Positions 36,287 through 41,990 of a stretch of 47,523 nucleotides of DNA are shown here, one piece after another. A program made the translations under genes and the position numbers. The DNA is from Deltaproteobacteria bacterium (GTDB taxonomy: Bacteria > Desulfobacterota > Binatia > UBA9968). A model generated the notes under the pieces. That model had not been told where the DNA came from, searched no databases, and saw nothing but the letters and a program-made list of their open reading frames with translations. The number at the start of each line of letters is the position of its first letter. The stretch's first letter is position 1. The stretch lies in the NCBI GenBank assembly GCA_016874755.1, contig VGTH01000043.1:1-47523 (forward strand), in the 5' to 3' direction.

Positions 36287-36949
36287 CTAATGCCCCGCGT
36301 TTTCCCACACCGACAGCCCCGCGCGGCAGCACAGCCCGTCCTGTTCCGGCCGAGCCATTCCGGCAACGCCGATGGCACCGACAATGGTCACGCCGTTGAT
36401 AATCGGCAGCGCGCCGACGGCAGGCAAAATCTTGCCGCGCGAAGCAATCGACAAGCTGCGCATCTGCGGGTCGCGTGCCTGCGCCGTTAGTGTCGCAGTG
36501 GCGACGTGCAGCGCGGCGGCCGTATAGGCTTTGTTAAATGCCAACTCGGCCGTCATCGGATCGGCCTTGTCCATCTTGCCGACGGCGATCGGCGCGCCCG
36601 CTTCATCGACGACAACCGCAGTCACCGCAGCGCCGACCATCTGCGCATATTCGTGCGCAGACTTGATCATCGCCCAGGCCGTCTCGAACGGCACTGGCCC
36701 GATGGCGGCCTTGTTCTGGCGGAAGAAAGCCGCGTTGACTTCAATGAAGTCGGTGTACTTCGCCGGGATATCGACGTCTTTGAAAATCGCATCCACCGGG
36801 CAGACAATCTCACACTGCTCGCAGTCGATGCAGACTTCGGGGTCTATATAGAATTGCGGCGCGCCGGGTTTGGTATGAATGCACGCCACCGGGCAAACTT
36901 CGACGCAAGCGCCGTCGTTGGTGCAGAGGTCGGTGATTACGTAGGGCAT
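36287..36949 (-). CDS. 7Fe/8Fe-type ferredoxin fused to HbpS/GlcG domain
   Basis: A 220-residue fusion, taking ATG 36947-36949 (MPYVITDLCTNDG). Residues 1-60 are a bacterial ferredoxin with Cys9, Cys15, Cys19-Pro and Cys23, then Cys40-x2-Cys43-x2-Cys46-x3-Cys50-Pro, the arrangement for two clusters. Residues about 80-220 are an HbpS/GlcG (haem-degrading, DUF336) domain: TAWAMIKSAHEYAQMVGAAVTAVVVDEAG, and GALPIINGVTIVGAIGVAG. HbpS-type proteins bind heme and have been reported to bind aquocobalamin, so the ferredoxin could deliver electrons to a corrinoid or heme. The upstream 'CATCCTGAGCGAAGCGAA' is a repeat, not coding. Confidence 0.88.
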   Translation of the reverse strand: MPYVITDLCTNDGACVEVCPVACIHTKPGAPQFYIDPEVCIDCEQCEIVCPVDAIFKDVDIPAKYTDFIEVNAAFFRQNKAAIGPVPFETAWAMIKSAHEYAQMVGAAVTAVVVDEAGAPIAVGKMDKADPMTAELAFNKAYTAAALHVATATLTAQARDPQMRSLSIASRGKILPAVGALPIINGVTIVGAIGVAGMARPEQDGLCCRAGLSVWENAGH

Positions 36950-36974
36950 AGGTTCGCTTCGCTCAGGATGCAAA

Positions 36975-37030
36975 ATTACAGATTCCAGATTTATTCACGC
37001 GATCAGCCGAGCCAATTTGGAATCTGTAAT
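36975..37030. repeat. hairpin repeat between RDH-like subunit and ferredoxin-HbpS genes
   Basis: ATTACAGATTCC (36975-36986) pairs with GGAATCTGTAAT (37019-37030), and a further CTGGAATTTGGAATC follows. It fills most of the 117-base gap between these two cotranscribed genes. Confidence 0.75.
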
Positions 37031-37066
37031 CTGGAATTTGGAATCGCACCGCGCGCCAGCGCCGCG

Positions 37067-37630
37067 CTAGTCGGCTTTCATCGGCATGTCTGTGTAGACC
37101 GCGTCGGCGACATAGATATTGGTTCCGAATTGTTGCGTCACTAATCTGCCGTTGCCATTCAGAGTTCCCATACCGGCTTTTCCAGCCATGGCGTCGAAAT
37201 CGTGATCGCGCACAATTTTCGCTCGAAAGCCTAATTCGCGAATCCACGAGCTCAACACGAACGTGATAAACAAGCCGTTCTGCACTGGCATTTGGCCGCC
37301 GATGCCTTTGGCGCTCCGCGCGTCATAGTCGTCGCGCACCGCGCACAGGATGGCGAAGGGGAATTTTTCGGCGTTGTCCGGTGCGCCGTCACCGAGCGCA
37401 AGTATGCCGGTCCTCTCCGAACCGAAATACAGAGCCATGCCTTTGACGTGGCTCGCCGTGATCGCCGGCGTGTGCAGCTCGGTCTTCGTCGGAAAGACGT
37501 TGCCCGGCGGCGCCTTGCGAATGAGTTCAATGACCGTGTTGGTCATGTCAGCGGGCTGCGTGTTGACGAAAAAATCCCAGTAGGGATCGTCGCCGTGAGA
37601 TTCTTTCGACCAGGGAAACTTGAAGGCCAC
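37067..37630 (-). CDS. reductive-dehalogenase-like corrinoid domain protein lacking Fe-S clusters
   Basis: A 187-residue protein starting with GTG 37628-37630, directly after the TAA of the RDH-like gene, so translation is coupled. Its C-terminal 100 residues match the N-terminal core of that protein: FPFAILCAVRDDYDARSAKG against FPYIVVATTAWDYNKLQAHR, SWIRELGFRAKIVRDHDFDA, then AGMGTLNGNGRLVTQQFGTN against GVGELGRNGLVISKEFGAR. It ends at MPMKAD, where the larger protein (LPLEAD) goes on into its Fe-S domain. The N-terminal 75 residues are less similar. It has a Tyr in the RDDYD segment like the larger subunit. It is a natural short subunit, not a stop-codon artefact; a heterodimer with the RDH-like protein is inferred. 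Confidence 0.75.
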   Translation of the reverse strand: MAFKFPWSKESHGDDPYWDFFVNTQPADMTNTVIELIRKAPPGNVFPTKTELHTPAITASHVKGMALYFGSERTGILALGDGAPDNAEKFPFAILCAVRDDYDARSAKGIGGQMPVQNGLFITFVLSSWIRELGFRAKIVRDHDFDAMAGKAGMGTLNGNGRLVTQQFGTNIYVADAVYTDMPMKAD

Positions 37631-38947
37631 TTACGGTTCCCGCTTAACGAAACGGTTGGTGTTTTCTTTGAGCGGCGCGTAGTAGCCGGTGCTGCCCGTA
37701 ACGGCGCCGGAACCTGCCTTGTCATGGGACGCGGTGCAGCCGGCCACCGTGCAAGCGTGCTCGCCCGGCTTGATGCCCGAGTCATAACCCAGCCAGGTAA
37801 CGCGAGCTGTGCGCGCCAATCCCCAGAATTTGTCATCGATCCATTTGAGAAATTTCACCACCAGCGGCCGCGCGCTGTAAGGAGAGTTGTGCAGCGACCA
37901 GGTAGCTAGATGGTGCCACCACACGTTCGGTTTGGTGTACGGGCAAACCGCGGCGCAGGTCAGGCAGCTGCCCCAGTAGTCGTGCACGTAAGGCCGCAGC
38001 TTATAACAGGTCAGCCAGTTGATCTTGTATTTTTCGACGCCGTTGTGGACGACCTTGTCGCCAACAGGGATGCTGTTGGTCGGACAGGTGTTGGCGCACT
38101 TGCGGCAGATCTTGCAGAAATCATCGACGCCGATGTCAATCGGTTCGTCGGCCTCGAGTGGCAGATCGGTGACAATCGGATCGGGCATGTGGACGCGTGC
38201 GCCGAACTCTTTACTGATGACCAGACCGTTGCGCCCCAGCTCACCGACACCCGACGCGATGCCCGCCGCCTGTGGCACCGCCACGCCGCGCAGTGCGTTG
38301 TAGCCCAACTCTTTGATGTAGCCTTCCAGGGCTTTGAGGATCATGTTCCCTTTGATCTGCGAGATGTGATACGCCGCGTCGCCGATCAGATGCCGATGTG
38401 CTTGCAGCTTGTTGTAATCCCAAGCCGTGGTGGCGACGACGATGTAAGGAAACCGGCGCGCCATGTCTTCGACAGAATCGCTCTGAAAATCATCTTTCGC
38501 CGTGCCGTCCTGGACGTAGCGACCCCCACCGGGTGCATAGAGATAGTTTGGATGGGTCTTGGCGATGCGGCAAATGTCGGCGCCCATGTACTTGGCGACC
38601 GCTTTGATATGGCGCGCCATCGCCTGCGGATCGTCGACGGAAACTTTCTGCGGATTGACTTTGCCCTTGGCTGCCTGGTTGACCACCGTGCTCAAGAAAT
38701 GGCGCCGGTCGGCAAAGTGGTTCGGCGCCGACACCCGCGTCAGCGGATCTTTCGAGACCGTGTTGTGGTACCAGTTGAATAGCGGCTTGCCCAACTCGCC
38801 GCGCTGATTTTTCGGATGCGGCGATTGGTTCATGTCGACGTTTTCGAACTTGTCGACGATGCGCACCGTGCGGCCGAGATAGGGAGTGGCGAATTCCTTG
38901 CTGGAATCGGCTTTTATTTCCGGTTCGATTTTTTCTGCTTTGGACAT
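37631..38947 (-). CDS. reductive dehalogenase-like (RdhA-family) corrinoid/Fe-S protein
   Basis: A 438-residue protein with the RdhA plan. The corrinoid-binding core (about 160-265) includes PYIVVATTAWDYNK, whose Tyr178 matches the position of the proton-donor Tyr of RdhA enzymes, IKELGYNAL and GVGELGRNGLVISKEFGAR. Two [4Fe-4S] motifs follow: Cys278-x2-Cys281-x2-Cys284-x3-Cys288-Pro, and Cys314 with Cys328-x2-Cys331-x3-Cys335-Pro. There is no Tat signal or RdhB anchor gene, so it should be cytoplasmic, as in the catabolic RdhA group and QueG. Extra C-terminal cysteines (Cys399, Cys404) are unusual. Dehalogenation is possible, but other corrinoid reductions are equally possible. Confidence 0.82.
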   Translation of the reverse strand: MSKAEKIEPEIKADSSKEFATPYLGRTVRIVDKFENVDMNQSPHPKNQRGELGKPLFNWYHNTVSKDPLTRVSAPNHFADRRHFLSTVVNQAAKGKVNPQKVSVDDPQAMARHIKAVAKYMGADICRIAKTHPNYLYAPGGGRYVQDGTAKDDFQSDSVEDMARRFPYIVVATTAWDYNKLQAHRHLIGDAAYHISQIKGNMILKALEGYIKELGYNALRGVAVPQAAGIASGVGELGRNGLVISKEFGARVHMPDPIVTDLPLEADEPIDIGVDDFCKICRKCANTCPTNSIPVGDKVVHNGVEKYKINWLTCYKLRPYVHDYWGSCLTCAAVCPYTKPNVWWHHLATWSLHNSPYSARPLVVKFLKWIDDKFWGLARTARVTWLGYDSGIKPGEHACTVAGCTASHDKAGSGAVTGSTGYYAPLKENTNRFVKREP

Positions 38948-38968
38948 GAGTCCTCCAGAGAAAATTGT

Positions 38969-39096
38969 GAATTATGAAAACGGAAGGATGAAGGAAAGCA
39001 GAAACGCGGAAAACGGAAAGCGGAAATATTCACTCGGAGTTGGGCGACCTCCGAAGTTTCCGCTTTCCGCGTTTCCGCTTTCATAATTCATAATTC
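38969..39096. repeat. long imperfect inverted repeat (AACGGAAAGCGGAAA type)
   Basis: The left arm GAATTATGAAAACGG and on (38969-39027) and the right arm TTTCCGCTTTCCGCGTTTCC and on, ending CATAATTC (39058-39096), pair imperfectly. The loop includes CGGAG/CTCCG. It occupies the whole gap between the HbpS/GlcG stop and the RDH-like start, and its edge carries the stop codon of the HbpS/GlcG gene. Confidence 0.8.
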
Positions 39097-39097
39097 A

Positions 39098-39496
39098 TCA
39101 TTGATAACTCGCCAGCGCCACTTCGGCGCATTTTTGATCCTGATCGTCGGTGCCGCCCGATACGGCGATGGCACCGACGACGTTGCCGCCCTCGACAACG
39201 GGTACGGCACCGCCGCCGGGCATGACCTTGCCGCTGCTTGAAACGACCAGACTTTGAAACCATGCTTGATTGGCAACGTTGGAGAGATCTTTGGTCGGCT
39301 GCTGAAAACTCGCCGCGGTGTAGGCTTTGTTGAGCGCGATTTCCACCGTAATCGGCCGCGCCTTGTCCATGCGCCCCAGCGCGATCATGCGTCCGCTTTG
39401 ATCGACCACCACCGCTGTGACGGCGATCTCCAACTGCGCCGCCTGCGCGTGCGCGCTGCGCACCATTTGAATCGCTTTTTCTCCAGGGATAGCCAT
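39098..39496 (-). CDS. HbpS/GlcG family heme/cobalamin-binding-like protein
   Basis: A 132-residue single HbpS/GlcG (DUF336) domain: AIQMVRSAHAQAAQLEIAVT, VVVDQSGRMIALGRMDKARP, then ALNKAYTAASFQQPTKDL and the glycine-rich GGGAVPVVEGGNVVGAIAVSGG. It is about 35-40 residues longer at each point of alignment to the fused copy at 36287. No signal peptide. Relatives form octamers and bind heme and corrinoids. It lies upstream of the RDH-like gene and may help to load, store or reduce its cofactor. The stop falls at the edge of the inverted repeat downstream. Confidence 0.85.
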   Translation of the reverse strand: MAIPGEKAIQMVRSAHAQAAQLEIAVTAVVVDQSGRMIALGRMDKARPITVEIALNKAYTAASFQQPTKDLSNVANQAWFQSLVVSSSGKVMPGGGAVPVVEGGNVVGAIAVSGGTDDQDQKCAEVALASYQ

Positions 39497-39692: not shown

Positions 39693-41990
39693 CTAGCCGC
39701 GCTTGGCTTGCAGCGCCTGCCACACCTTCGGCGGCGTCAGCGGCAAGTCCTGAATGCGCACGCCGACGGCGCGCGATACCGCGTTCGCCACGGCCGATGC
39801 CACCGGCAAGAGCCCACCTTCACCGATGCCCTTCGAACCAAACGGCCCCGGTCCGTTGCCGTTCTCTAACAGGATGGTTTGCAGTTTCTCAGGGACATCC
39901 TCAAACGTCGGCACGCGATAATCGACCAGGTTGCCGTTGAGCAGCTGGCCGTCTTCGTAGTGCATCTCTTCGAGCAGCGTGTGGCCGATACCGAACATCA
40001 CGGCGCCTTCGTCCTGGCCTTCACATTGTTCGGGATTGATGGCTTTGCCAGCGTCGCAAGCAGAAACATACTTGAGCAGCTTCACCGTGCCGGTGTCCGG
40101 ATCGACTTCGACTTCGGCACCGCCCCAACCGACTTCCCAAAACGTCGTCGTCGAACCCAGCACTGCTTTCGTGCTGCGTTTGTCTTTGTAGAGGCCCTTG
40201 CCGATGATCTCGCCGGCTTTGCTGCCAAAGAAATCAACGATGATCTTACTGTAGGGGATCGCCTGCTCGCTCGCCGTAATCACGTGGCCGTCGCGCAGCA
40301 TCAGCTTTTCCGGTTTTTGCTTAAGCACTTTGGCGGCGCATTGGAGCAACTGCTTTTTGGCATCCTGGGCCGCGCGCAGCACCGCCGTGCCCATGACCAC
40401 CATCGAGCTACTCGCGCTGGTGGAAATATCGTAGGGCGTGACATCGGTATCGAGCTGCGCCACACCGATTTGGTCCATAGGCATTGCCAGCTCTTCGGCG
40501 ACCACTTGACTAAGAGCGGTGCGGGGCCCCTGCCCCACTTCGACCGTGCCGGTGAGCAGCATGACGCTGCCGTCGGACGACATCTTGACGGTCGCGCCGG
40601 CGACTTTATACGTGCCGCCGGCGTCTTTGATACAGCAACTTAGACCTTTGGCGCGATTGGGCTGGGAGCTTTTCTTGTTCCATTCGATGGCGTCGGCGAC
40701 TTTGAGCAACCCTTCTTTTAAATCGCAATCGAGTGGCGTGTCGCCTTTCGTGTAAAGGTCGCCTTTCTTCATGAGATTCTTCAAGCGAAACTCGAGCGGA
40801 TCGATGCCCAAACGATCGGCCATCATGTCCATCTGCGACTCATAAGCCCACGTGACTTGCAGTGCGCCGAAACCGCGAAACGCTCCAGCGGGGACGACGT
40901 TGGTGTAAACACCATAGGCTTCGACTTTGGCGTAAGGGATTTTGTAAGGACCCAGCGAACGGTAGCACGCCTTCTGTGTGACGCGCGGGCCCGCGTCGGC
41001 GTAGGCGCCAGTGTCCATGTAAACCTGACACTCACGCGCAACCAGCTTGCCGTCTTTCGTCACGCCGGTCTTGACGGTGACCCGCGACGGATGGCGCGTG
41101 ACGGTCTTAAAGCTTTCGTTGACCGAGAGCTGCAACTTCACCGGTCGGCGCGTCATCCAGCTCAGCGCCGCGGAAATCGGCTCGGCTTTGACATAAAGCT
41201 TGCCGCCGTAGCCGCCGCCGACGTAGGGGACAATCACACGAATGCGGCTGCAGGGCAGGCGAAAAATTCCCGACAGATGATCGCGCAGCGTAAACGGATC
41301 CTGGCACGACGCCCACACCGTGAGCTTCTCGCCATCGTAGTAGGCAACGTTATTGTGAGCCTCCAGCGAATAGTGCTGGACTTTTTGAAAACGAAAGGTG
41401 TCTTCGAAAATATGATCGGCTTTGGCAAAACCTTTGTCGACGTCCTCACGGCCAAAGGTCAAGTAATAGCAAATATTGGTGCCGTTAAAGCGCTCCGGCG
41501 CGCCGTAGGTCGAGCCGCGCAGCTCGGCGCGCGCAACGCCGCCCTCATGGACTTGCATGGCACCCGGCGCGGTGGCTTCTTCAATATTGGTTACCTTTGG
41601 CAACTCGTCATATTCGACTTCGATCAACTCCAGCGCGGCTTCGGCGATGTCAGGATCCTCCGCCAGCACCGCAGCGACCGGATCGCCGACGTAGCGCACT
41701 TTGTCGACGGCGACGATCGACTGGTCTTTATAGGTCGCGCCATATTTGAAATTGAACTGCTTGATGTCGTCGCGCGTCAGTGTCGCAATCACGCCGGGCA
41801 ATTGCTTTGCCTTGGAGGCATCGACTTTGACGAGTCGAGCATGTGCCACCGGGCTACGCAAAATCTTGGCATAGGCCATTCCCGGCAGCCGCACATCGAC
41901 AGTGTATGCCGCTTTGCCCGTAACTTTTTCGATGCTATCGACGCGATGCGCGCTGGTGCCGGCGATCTTAAATGCGTGCGAGGTTTTCAT
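39693..41990 (-). CDS. xanthine dehydrogenase-family molybdenum hydroxylase, large subunit
   Basis: A 765-residue molybdopterin-binding subunit of the xanthine oxidase family. It contains GGGYGGKLYVKAEP (about 258-271, the conserved glycine motif), AFRGFGALQVTWAYE (about 370) and the C-terminal active-site Glu in SKGIGEGGLLPVASA (about 720). It should hydroxylate a heteroaromatic ring, aldehyde or CoA ester carbon, or reduce a 4-hydroxybenzoyl-CoA-like substrate. The usual [2Fe-2S] and FAD subunit genes are absent from the neighbourhood. A terminator-like hairpin ends just 11 bases before the ATG. The following gap of 196 bases holds only low-complexity 'CGAAAACGCGAACCCC' type sequence. Confidence 0.9.
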   Translation of the reverse strand: MKTSHAFKIAGTSAHRVDSIEKVTGKAAYTVDVRLPGMAYAKILRSPVAHARLVKVDASKAKQLPGVIATLTRDDIKQFNFKYGATYKDQSIVAVDKVRYVGDPVAAVLAEDPDIAEAALELIEVEYDELPKVTNIEEATAPGAMQVHEGGVARAELRGSTYGAPERFNGTNICYYLTFGREDVDKGFAKADHIFEDTFRFQKVQHYSLEAHNNVAYYDGEKLTVWASCQDPFTLRDHLSGIFRLPCSRIRVIVPYVGGGYGGKLYVKAEPISAALSWMTRRPVKLQLSVNESFKTVTRHPSRVTVKTGVTKDGKLVARECQVYMDTGAYADAGPRVTQKACYRSLGPYKIPYAKVEAYGVYTNVVPAGAFRGFGALQVTWAYESQMDMMADRLGIDPLEFRLKNLMKKGDLYTKGDTPLDCDLKEGLLKVADAIEWNKKSSQPNRAKGLSCCIKDAGGTYKVAGATVKMSSDGSVMLLTGTVEVGQGPRTALSQVVAEELAMPMDQIGVAQLDTDVTPYDISTSASSSMVVMGTAVLRAAQDAKKQLLQCAAKVLKQKPEKLMLRDGHVITASEQAIPYSKIIVDFFGSKAGEIIGKGLYKDKRSTKAVLGSTTTFWEVGWGGAEVEVDPDTGTVKLLKYVSACDAGKAINPEQCEGQDEGAVMFGIGHTLLEEMHYEDGQLLNGNLVDYRVPTFEDVPEKLQTILLENGNGPGPFGSKGIGEGGLLPVASAVANAVSRAVGVRIQDLPLTPPKVWQALQAKRG

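Follow-up and report, generated by a model that had tools for sequence, protein, structure and literature searches.

Catabolic reductive dehalogenases (RDHs) of the RdhA family contain a vestigial duplicate of the corrinoid-binding core, which has lost cobalamin binding and mimics the monomer–monomer interface of the dimeric respiratory enzymes (PMC10463259; papers are cited by PMC number). In these enzymes, represented by NpRdhA of Nitratireductor pacificus and by JtRdhA, the vestigial domain is N-terminal and part of the same chain, and in the self-sufficient enzymes of this type a reductase is fused as well (PMC10463259). Outside the RdhA family, the cobalamin-handling proteins MMACHC (CblC) and MMADHC (CblD) form a 1:1 heterodimer in which MMADHC was reported not to bind cobalamin (PMC4705923). 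Here we describe a locus of a Deltaproteobacteria bacterium (Desulfobacterota; Binatia; UBA9968; assembly GCA_016874755.1, contig VGTH01000043.1) in which a gene for an RdhA-like corrinoid/iron–sulfur (Fe–S) protein (long gene, 37631–38947, minus strand) is followed by a gene for a free-standing, truncated core (short gene, 37067–37630, minus strand); positions refer to the window, that is, the whole analyzed stretch of 47,523 nucleotides. The pair appears to be another case, seemingly of independent origin, of the NpRdhA arrangement, in which one live and one dead corrinoid core are kept together.

Results

The TAA stop codon of the long gene (37631–37633) and the GTG start codon of the short gene (37628–37630) adjoin immediately (37628–37633, minus strand), and both genes lie in one frame in the window, which confirms a first-pass annotation of this DNA that had described two coupled open reading frames (ORFs). 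In most relatives that we read, stop and start overlap by one base (TAGTG or TAATG), which is the usual sign of translational coupling. The long gene is located directly ahead of the short gene in 21/21 testable genomes, always as a separate gene; in the untestable genome (G530; G and L numbers denote the genomes and loci compared), the contig stops inside the short gene. The short gene is carried by 22 genomes from at least three groups. Eleven of them, the window's genome included, were found among 145 relatives searched and have a short protein of at least 56% identity, and they are exactly the 11 that have a long protein of at least 71% identity. When GTDB species genomes were scanned with the short alignment, 16 loci were obtained, of which nine were already among the relatives, six come from metagenome-assembled genomes (MAGs) of Rokubacteria, and one comes from a Chloroflexi MAG. 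Searches around two of these loci covered 195 and 201 genomes and gave 7 and 4 with a match; 6 and 1 of these were repeats, which leaves four additional genomes. No further pair of the window type was found in wider phylum draws of 297 genomes for the short and 395 for the long protein: among the 297, a match to the short protein at E 0.001 was obtained in 21, but apart from the window's own genome, the remaining 20 matches were weak (best 41.6 bits) and mostly parts of RDH-length frames, and the next best match of the long protein was 42% identical. The co-occurrence of the two genes is thus fixed in all testable genomes, and the short gene is widespread and not a local chance duplication.

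Judged by its sequence, the long protein (438 aa) is of the RdhA type and not a QueG. It matches the NCBIfam reductive dehalogenase profile TIGR02486 with 152.4 bits (E 2.4e-44), just below the curated cut-off of 160.35, and the profile is matched by all nine long proteins scanned; two of three scanned proteins from a sister clade, which is described below, exceed the cut-off. On the QueG profile TIGR00276, the long protein reaches 54 bits, with a cut-off of 200, and its sequence matches in the PDB are PceA (4uqu, E 1.4e-28), NpRdhA, and QueG. The host genome encodes a separate true QueG elsewhere (L004; 397.5 bits on TIGR00276), and the long and short genes are therefore not misnamed QueG genes. 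Behind the corrinoid core, the long protein carries the two [4Fe-4S] motifs that had been annotated, CKICRKCANTCP (Cys278–Cys288, 38084–38116) and CX13CXXCXXXCP (Cys314–Cys335, 37943–38008), and both are present in 16 of 17 long rows, the 17th ending at a contig edge. Three of these 17 rows had lost their N-terminus to contig ends, and a simple pattern search of the first 60 residues of the other 14 gave no twin-arginine motif. Likewise, no RdhB-like gene recurs beside the unit among ORFs of at least 80 aa, a survey that did not include an RdhB profile search. The initial claims that a twin-arginine translocation (Tat) signal and RdhB are lacking thus stand within these limits. An additional feature is a C-terminal CX4CX3H tail (Cys399–His408, 37724–37753), which is found in all 19 long proteins of the residue table described next and, in a motif scan, in 17/17 long and 7/7 sister proteins (15 long rows are common to both sets), and in 0/26 other RdhA/QueG-type proteins, whose last 90 residues were scanned.

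Catalytic positions were numbered by alignment to PceA/NpRdhA, using 20 other RdhA-type rows (PceA, the NpRdhA core, and 18 hand-chosen loci; L047 and L050 were dropped as they have no end motif), 7 sister, 19 long, and 20 short rows. Rows cut by contig ends were omitted (long proteins of L066 and L069, short proteins of G301 and G530), and the third active-site residue of PceA, Asn272, was excluded because the alignments placed it inconsistently. Tyr246 and Arg305 of PceA have been described as catalytic (PMC10624902), and Ser422 and Tyr426 of NpRdhA are both positioned at the substrate (PMC7565698). The first-pass annotation had assumed that a Tyr is kept at the proton-donor site of both window proteins, which turned out to be incorrect: position 246/426 is Tyr in all 20 other RdhA-type proteins, Asn (6) or Leu (1) in the sister clade, Gln (17) or Leu (2) in long proteins, and Val (16), Ala (3), or Met (1) in short proteins, and the window residues are Gln197 (38357–38359) and Val116, respectively. 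The Tyr that is common to both window proteins, Tyr178 of the long and Tyr102 of the short protein, belongs to a D-Y motif frequent in RdhA cores, and was presumably the one that had been meant. At position 242/422 (Thr242 in PceA, Ser422 in NpRdhA), a Tyr is present in 19/19 long (Tyr193 in the window, 38369–38371) and 7/7 sister proteins and in 0/20 others, which have Thr, Ser, Val, Ala, or Ile, and all 20 short proteins have Gly. At position 305/488 (Arg305 in PceA, Lys488 in NpRdhA), a His is found in 19/19 long (His253, 38189–38191) and 7/7 sister proteins; the others have Arg (18) or Lys (1) with one gap, and the short proteins His (15), Tyr (4), or Gln (1). The canonical proton-donor Tyr and Arg/Lys, present in 20/20 and 19/20 of the other proteins, thus occur in 0/26 long and sister rows, and it seems that in these two clades the Tyr has shifted by four positions and the Arg has been exchanged for a His. 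An invariant Gln197 in the long protein, which we had considered, was ruled out by the Leu in two divergent genomes (L118, L119), and the fixed set is therefore limited to Tyr193, His253, and the CX4CX3H tail. L118 and L119 (genomes G730 and G724) are the most divergent units, with long proteins 54–56% and short proteins 44–46% identical to those of the window, and are useful for telling which residues are truly fixed.

The short protein (187 aa) repeats the core only. It aligns with long residues 57–267 at 25% identity (E 1e-17), a profile–profile comparison of short and long proteins (hhalign) gave 99.2%, and its residues 110–187 match positions 114–196 of TIGR02486, which is a part of the core, with 31.5 bits (E 1.6e-7). 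All 16 short proteins scanned match this profile and none has a Pfam match at E 0.01; on the QueG profile TIGR00276, the short protein reaches 11.2 bits (cut-off 200). Both window proteins are therefore of the RdhA type by profile, with QueG scores below the cut-off. The short protein ends with TDMPMKAD, just ahead of where the first Cys motif of the long protein would fall, and in all 21 genomes whose end was seen, the C-terminus likewise directly follows TDLPLxxD or a variant thereof, where the Fe–S domain would begin (two of the 22 copies are cut by contig ends). The cluster-free RdhA-like partner that had been proposed is thus real. Two motifs of the core also differ between the groups: the Glu of the GLGE motif is present in all long and sister proteins and in 15 of the others (four Gln, one gap), and is gone in 18/20 short proteins; the Arg of the GR motif is present in all long and sister proteins and in 19/20 others, and is retained in just 5/20 short proteins. 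The GLGELGRNG motif is degraded in most short copies, and the YS-loop region is absent from the alignment of the short proteins, which have a fixed motif of their own, GGQxP.

An AlphaFold2 model of the short protein, based on an alignment of 16 short proteins (mean confidence by predicted local distance difference test (pLDDT) 72, predicted template modelling score (pTM) 0.74), fits the vestigial NpRdhA domain (residues 69–219) with Z 11.9 and a root-mean-square deviation (rmsd) of 2.3 over 127 residues in VIA-align. The top row of this search is NpRdhA, with Z 12.8 for an aligned range that covers both cores; PceA cores mostly follow at Z about 11 (rmsd 3.3–4.7) and QueG at about 10, whereby gaps of less than 1 in Z were treated as ties, and CblD and CblC reach Z 6.1 to 8.0. 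In Foldseek, RdhA and QueG rank first. Both fold searches were made with the short model.

The short gene is under purifying selection, as the ratio of nonsynonymous to synonymous substitution rates (dN/dS; Nei–Gojobori) is 0.06–0.30 in 14 of 15 chosen pairs, with one pair saturated. The long gene gave 0.06–0.23 in 15/15 pairs; the values are rough in both cases, as dS is often above 1. As to its origin, long and short proteins have a one-residue insertion in common (Asp in 19/19 long proteins; Asp in 16, Asn in 3, and Lys in 1 of 20 short proteins) that occurs neither in any of the 20 other RdhA-type proteins, nor in the 7 sister proteins, nor in the vestigial domain of NpRdhA. This confinement points to the short gene being a copy of the long gene that arose by duplication. 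In a tree of 48 rows, which carries long-branch warnings, short, long, and sister proteins each form one clade, and the three are joined at 93/91. The two NpRdhA halves join each other (92/81) and not the short proteins. We had also considered orthology between the short protein and the vestigial NpRdhA domain, which is opposed by this tree, within its long-branch warnings, and by the insertion.

The sister clade consists of RDH-like proteins about 37–42% identical to the long protein. All six of its RDH genes in four loci, one of them (in L075) split over two frames, are directly followed by a FdxA-type ferredoxin gene, and neither a short gene nor an HbpS match was found in the four loci read. 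A plausible history would begin with an RDH–FdxA pair, followed by duplication of the RDH gene with loss of the second Fe–S domain, and then by fusion of FdxA to HbpS. The sister pairs in L074 (G198) and L075 (G298) lie near genes for binding proteins of ATP-binding cassette (ABC) transporters, and G198 also has an EutA-like gene nearby. G198 contains seven matches to the long protein at E 1e-40 or better, six of which are 39–42% identical over most of the length.

The pair had been regarded as a two-gene system, and this was incomplete, as a search with eight window proteins (tblastn) against the homologous loci showed that four genes recur in the order HbpS, long, short, ferredoxin:HbpS. The unit is opened by an HbpS-like protein of 132 aa (39098–39496, minus strand; PF03928, E 4.7e-31, 107.9 bits), whose gene lies upstream of the long gene in 15 of the 17 genomes in which the contig reaches far enough (the contigs of five others end too soon). 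It is closed by a FdxA-type ferredoxin fused to an HbpS domain (about 36287–36949, minus strand; likely start MPYVIT, the ORF itself opening at 36973; PF03928 E 6.9e-25, 88 bits; Fer4 E 2e-13), whose gene comes directly after the short gene in 20 of the 21 genomes that allow the test, the contig of G301 ending too soon. Both flanking proteins pass the PF03928 gathering score of 25, and in the two most divergent genomes, the stop codon of the short gene overlaps the start of the ferredoxin gene (GTGA, ATGA). The window's genome encodes six HbpS domains in total, two of them within the unit, as well as a PF01923 cobalamin adenosyltransferase and seven B12-binding domains above the cut-off, which suggests that corrinoids are probably used by the host.

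Discussion

We consider it somewhat more likely than not that the long and short proteins form an asymmetric heterodimer with one corrinoid site, in which the short protein is a free-standing pseudo-domain, and that all four genes belong to this system. The unit would encode a cytoplasmic corrinoid/iron–sulfur reductase from an RdhA-related, non-canonical clade, whose long subunit would hold the corrinoid and two [4Fe-4S] clusters and carry out the chemistry. The acid Tyr would be shifted by four residues, about one helical turn, so that Tyr193 would act in place of a Tyr at position 246/426, and His253 would stand in for the partner Arg/Lys. The short protein would be a pseudo-enzyme, a duplicated long core minus the Fe–S domain and the catalytic residues, that binds to the long protein where a second RdhA protomer would otherwise sit, a role that the fused vestigial domain plays within NpRdhA. 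Electrons would reach the Fe–S clusters from the FdxA domain of the fourth protein. The two HbpS domains would bind a tetrapyrrole; in the simplest case, this would be the corrinoid while it is being loaded or repaired.

The arrangement resembles the NpRdhA type, as a twin-arginine signal is lacking and one complete core with two [4Fe-4S] clusters is combined with a second core whose model fits the vestigial domain (Z 11.9); the loss of cobalamin binding, described for the vestigial domain of NpRdhA, may also apply to the short protein. In contrast to NpRdhA, where the vestigial domain is N-terminal in the same chain (PMC10463259), the window unit encodes it in a separate downstream gene (21/21), and residues equivalent to Tyr426 and Lys488 are replaced. 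The two duplications look independent, because the tree joins the NpRdhA domains together and the insertion ties the short to the long protein. With the respiratory, homodimeric PceA, the long protein shares the core and two [4Fe-4S] motifs (E 1.4e-28); unlike PceA, the window unit has no twin-arginine motif and no RdhB was seen, Tyr246 and Arg305 are replaced, and the CX4CX3H tail is extra. QueG belongs to the same fold group, but the 54 bits of the long protein on its profile are far from the cut-off of 200. The Asp134 of QueG presumably sits at the RdhA Tyr position. A PDB title names it as catalytic, and therefore QueG, too, works without the RdhA Tyr. With the CblC/CblD pair (MMACHC/MMADHC), the likeness lies in two nitroreductase-fold proteins, one of which binds cobalamin and the other reportedly does not (PMC4705923). 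Unlike the proposed reductase, CblC and CblD are trafficking proteins, and no sequence relation turned up. To our knowledge, they contain no Fe–S clusters. HbpS and the C-terminal domain of PduO resemble both flanking genes in their PF03928 domains, but in the window an HbpS domain is fused to a FdxA-type ferredoxin and encoded beside an RDH. The closest described idea is thus the vestigial domain fused within NpRdhA (PMC10463259), and the initial statement that no such system has been described holds, within the open-access literature searched, for the separate genes, which are apparently new, and not for the idea as such. In the same literature, we found no description of a FdxA-type ferredoxin:HbpS fusion beside an RDH, nor of an RDH in connection with HbpS, GlcG, or Rokubacteria. 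A genome paper on Binatota mentions other dehalogenases, and neither “reductive” nor “cobalamin” appears in its main text (PMC8262859).

Several observations weigh against the explanation proposed here. Of the alignments made for a fused long–short model, A3 and A6 placed short rows onto the long core and A5 was correct except for one sister row; the model calculated with A7, which is A5 minus the misplaced sister row and plus one short row, reached a pTM of 0.35 and no interface was seen, and support for the heterodimer therefore comes from homology, coupling, and co-occurrence. The model of the short protein is itself middling, with residues 108–116 near the Tyr site below pLDDT 50, and its Foldseek query template modelling scores for RdhA rows are 0.5–0.6. 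At the sequence level, the short profile gives 24.5 bits for the live core of NpRdhA and a lower score, 17.6 bits, for its vestigial domain. The GR-motif Arg is kept in 5/20 and the His at position 305 in 15/20 short proteins, and loss of corrinoid binding by the short protein is therefore not certain. At the threshold used, the upstream HbpS gene is absent in 2/17 testable genomes, G724 and G730, which hold other HbpS genes (the best 40% identical to that of the window; five loci compared). The fusion gene is unlinked to the pair in 1/21 genomes, G298, where pyruvate kinase is encoded behind the pair (L063) and the fusion gene (82% identical) is located on another contig (L128). Furthermore, Streptomyces HbpS binds haem and, weakly, aquo-cobalamin (dissociation constant 34 µM), and its PduO relative has a strong affinity for haem and, for aquo-cobalamin, an extremely weak one at most (PMC4923194, PMC4991794); the HbpS domains may therefore carry haem.

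The affinity of HbpS-family proteins for tetrapyrroles (PMC4923194) would also fit a corrinoid loading or repair machine formed by the short protein and the HbpS proteins, which would then not be structural subunits. The short protein would act in the manner of human CblD (MMADHC), the partner of the cobalamin carrier CblC, and would leave the long protein once this is charged. In the fold search, RdhA and QueG are indeed followed by CblD and CblC (best Z 8.0 and 6.6), and the 1:1 MMACHC–MMADHC heterodimer with its reportedly cobalamin-free partner (PMC4705923) is a precedent, but Z near 8 may reflect a mere common fold, the short sequence groups with the RdhA core, the common insertion marks it as a copy of the long protein, and the sister clade does without a short gene in the four loci read; we regard this explanation as unlikely. 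The short protein could alternatively bind a corrinoid of its own at an interface with the ferredoxin:HbpS protein, which would replace the Fe–S domain, resulting in two unequal RDHs, one of them split over two genes. The ferredoxin gene is close behind the short gene, with overlaps in two genomes, the long alignment continues in four Rokubacteria loci through the short protein into the ferredoxin (to residue 336), and 15/20 short proteins have the His at position 305. However, the Tyr site is Val, Ala, or Met and position 242 is Gly in 20/20 short proteins, the GLGE Glu is gone in 18/20 and the GR Arg in 15/20, the YS-loop region is absent, and the ferredoxin is of the FdxA type and not an RdhA Fe–S domain, which makes this possibility quite improbable. 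By the same residues and the likeness to the cobalamin-free NpRdhA domain, the initial suggestion of a further corrinoid site, with a Tyr donor, on the short protein is not supported, and such an extra site is unlikely.

That the unit is an ordinary cytoplasmic RDH, with residue changes that tune the substrate range and the short protein as a minor stabilizer, would agree with the score of the long protein on TIGR02486 (152 bits, cut-off 160) and with the two of three sister proteins above the cut-off. We give this little credence, as the proton-donor Tyr and Arg/Lys of 20/20 and 19/20 other proteins are found in 0/26 long and sister proteins, no halogen-linked gene recurs beside the unit in the loci read, and the flanks vary. 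As the acid/base pair is changed, ordinary dehalogenation is uncertain. The idea of a decaying duplicate that persists by chance could draw on the lost Fe–S domain and catalytic residues, but is barely conceivable for a gene that is open in 22 genomes with a common end point, a dN/dS far below 1, and a fixed motif of its own (GGQxP).

As the two cores are encoded by separate genes, the contribution of the presumably dead copy can be addressed by simply omitting one gene, which is impossible in a single chain. The long and sister proteins constitute an RdhA-like clade in which the catalytic Tyr/Arg is replaced by a fixed alternative pair, which is a warning against naming such proteins dehalogenases, and the unit connects HbpS proteins with an apparent corrinoid enzyme. 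One could go further and postulate a new class of B12/Fe–S reductases with an obligate association of an RdhA-type and a corrinoid-free pseudo-subunit, a relocated acid (Tyr at 242, His at 305), a metal-binding-like tail, a corrinoid-carrying HbpS, a ferredoxin tethered to the carrier, and a substrate other than a carbon–halogen bond, but taken as a whole this extended proposal is speculative and on balance doubtful.

The surroundings of the unit were also considered as a clue to the substrate, which was abandoned because the UbiD, molybdenum-hydroxylase, and methyltransferase neighbours in the window are not conserved beside it. The farther neighbours vary between genomes, and flanks elsewhere include genes for pyruvate kinase, 6-phosphogluconate dehydrogenase, a transporter, and FUR (10 proteins scanned). 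In the window, a molybdenum hydroxylase alpha-like subunit of the 4-hydroxybenzoyl-CoA reductase/xanthine dehydrogenase type (39693–41990) adjoins the unit, with no gene for its partner subunit among the eight window proteins scanned. The region between the HbpS and long genes (38948–39097) folds into a long and very stable hairpin (−61.6 kcal/mol, z −7.8) that looks like a repeated intergenic element, and a shorter inverted repeat (z −2.0) lies between the short and ferredoxin:HbpS genes (36974–37066). Weaker relatives of the window's neighbours are found in few loci, namely UbiD (27% identity) in G305 and xdh (24–35%) in L089 and L120, and in L070, an enoyl-CoA hydratase of 71% identity is encoded about 5 kb downstream of the unit.

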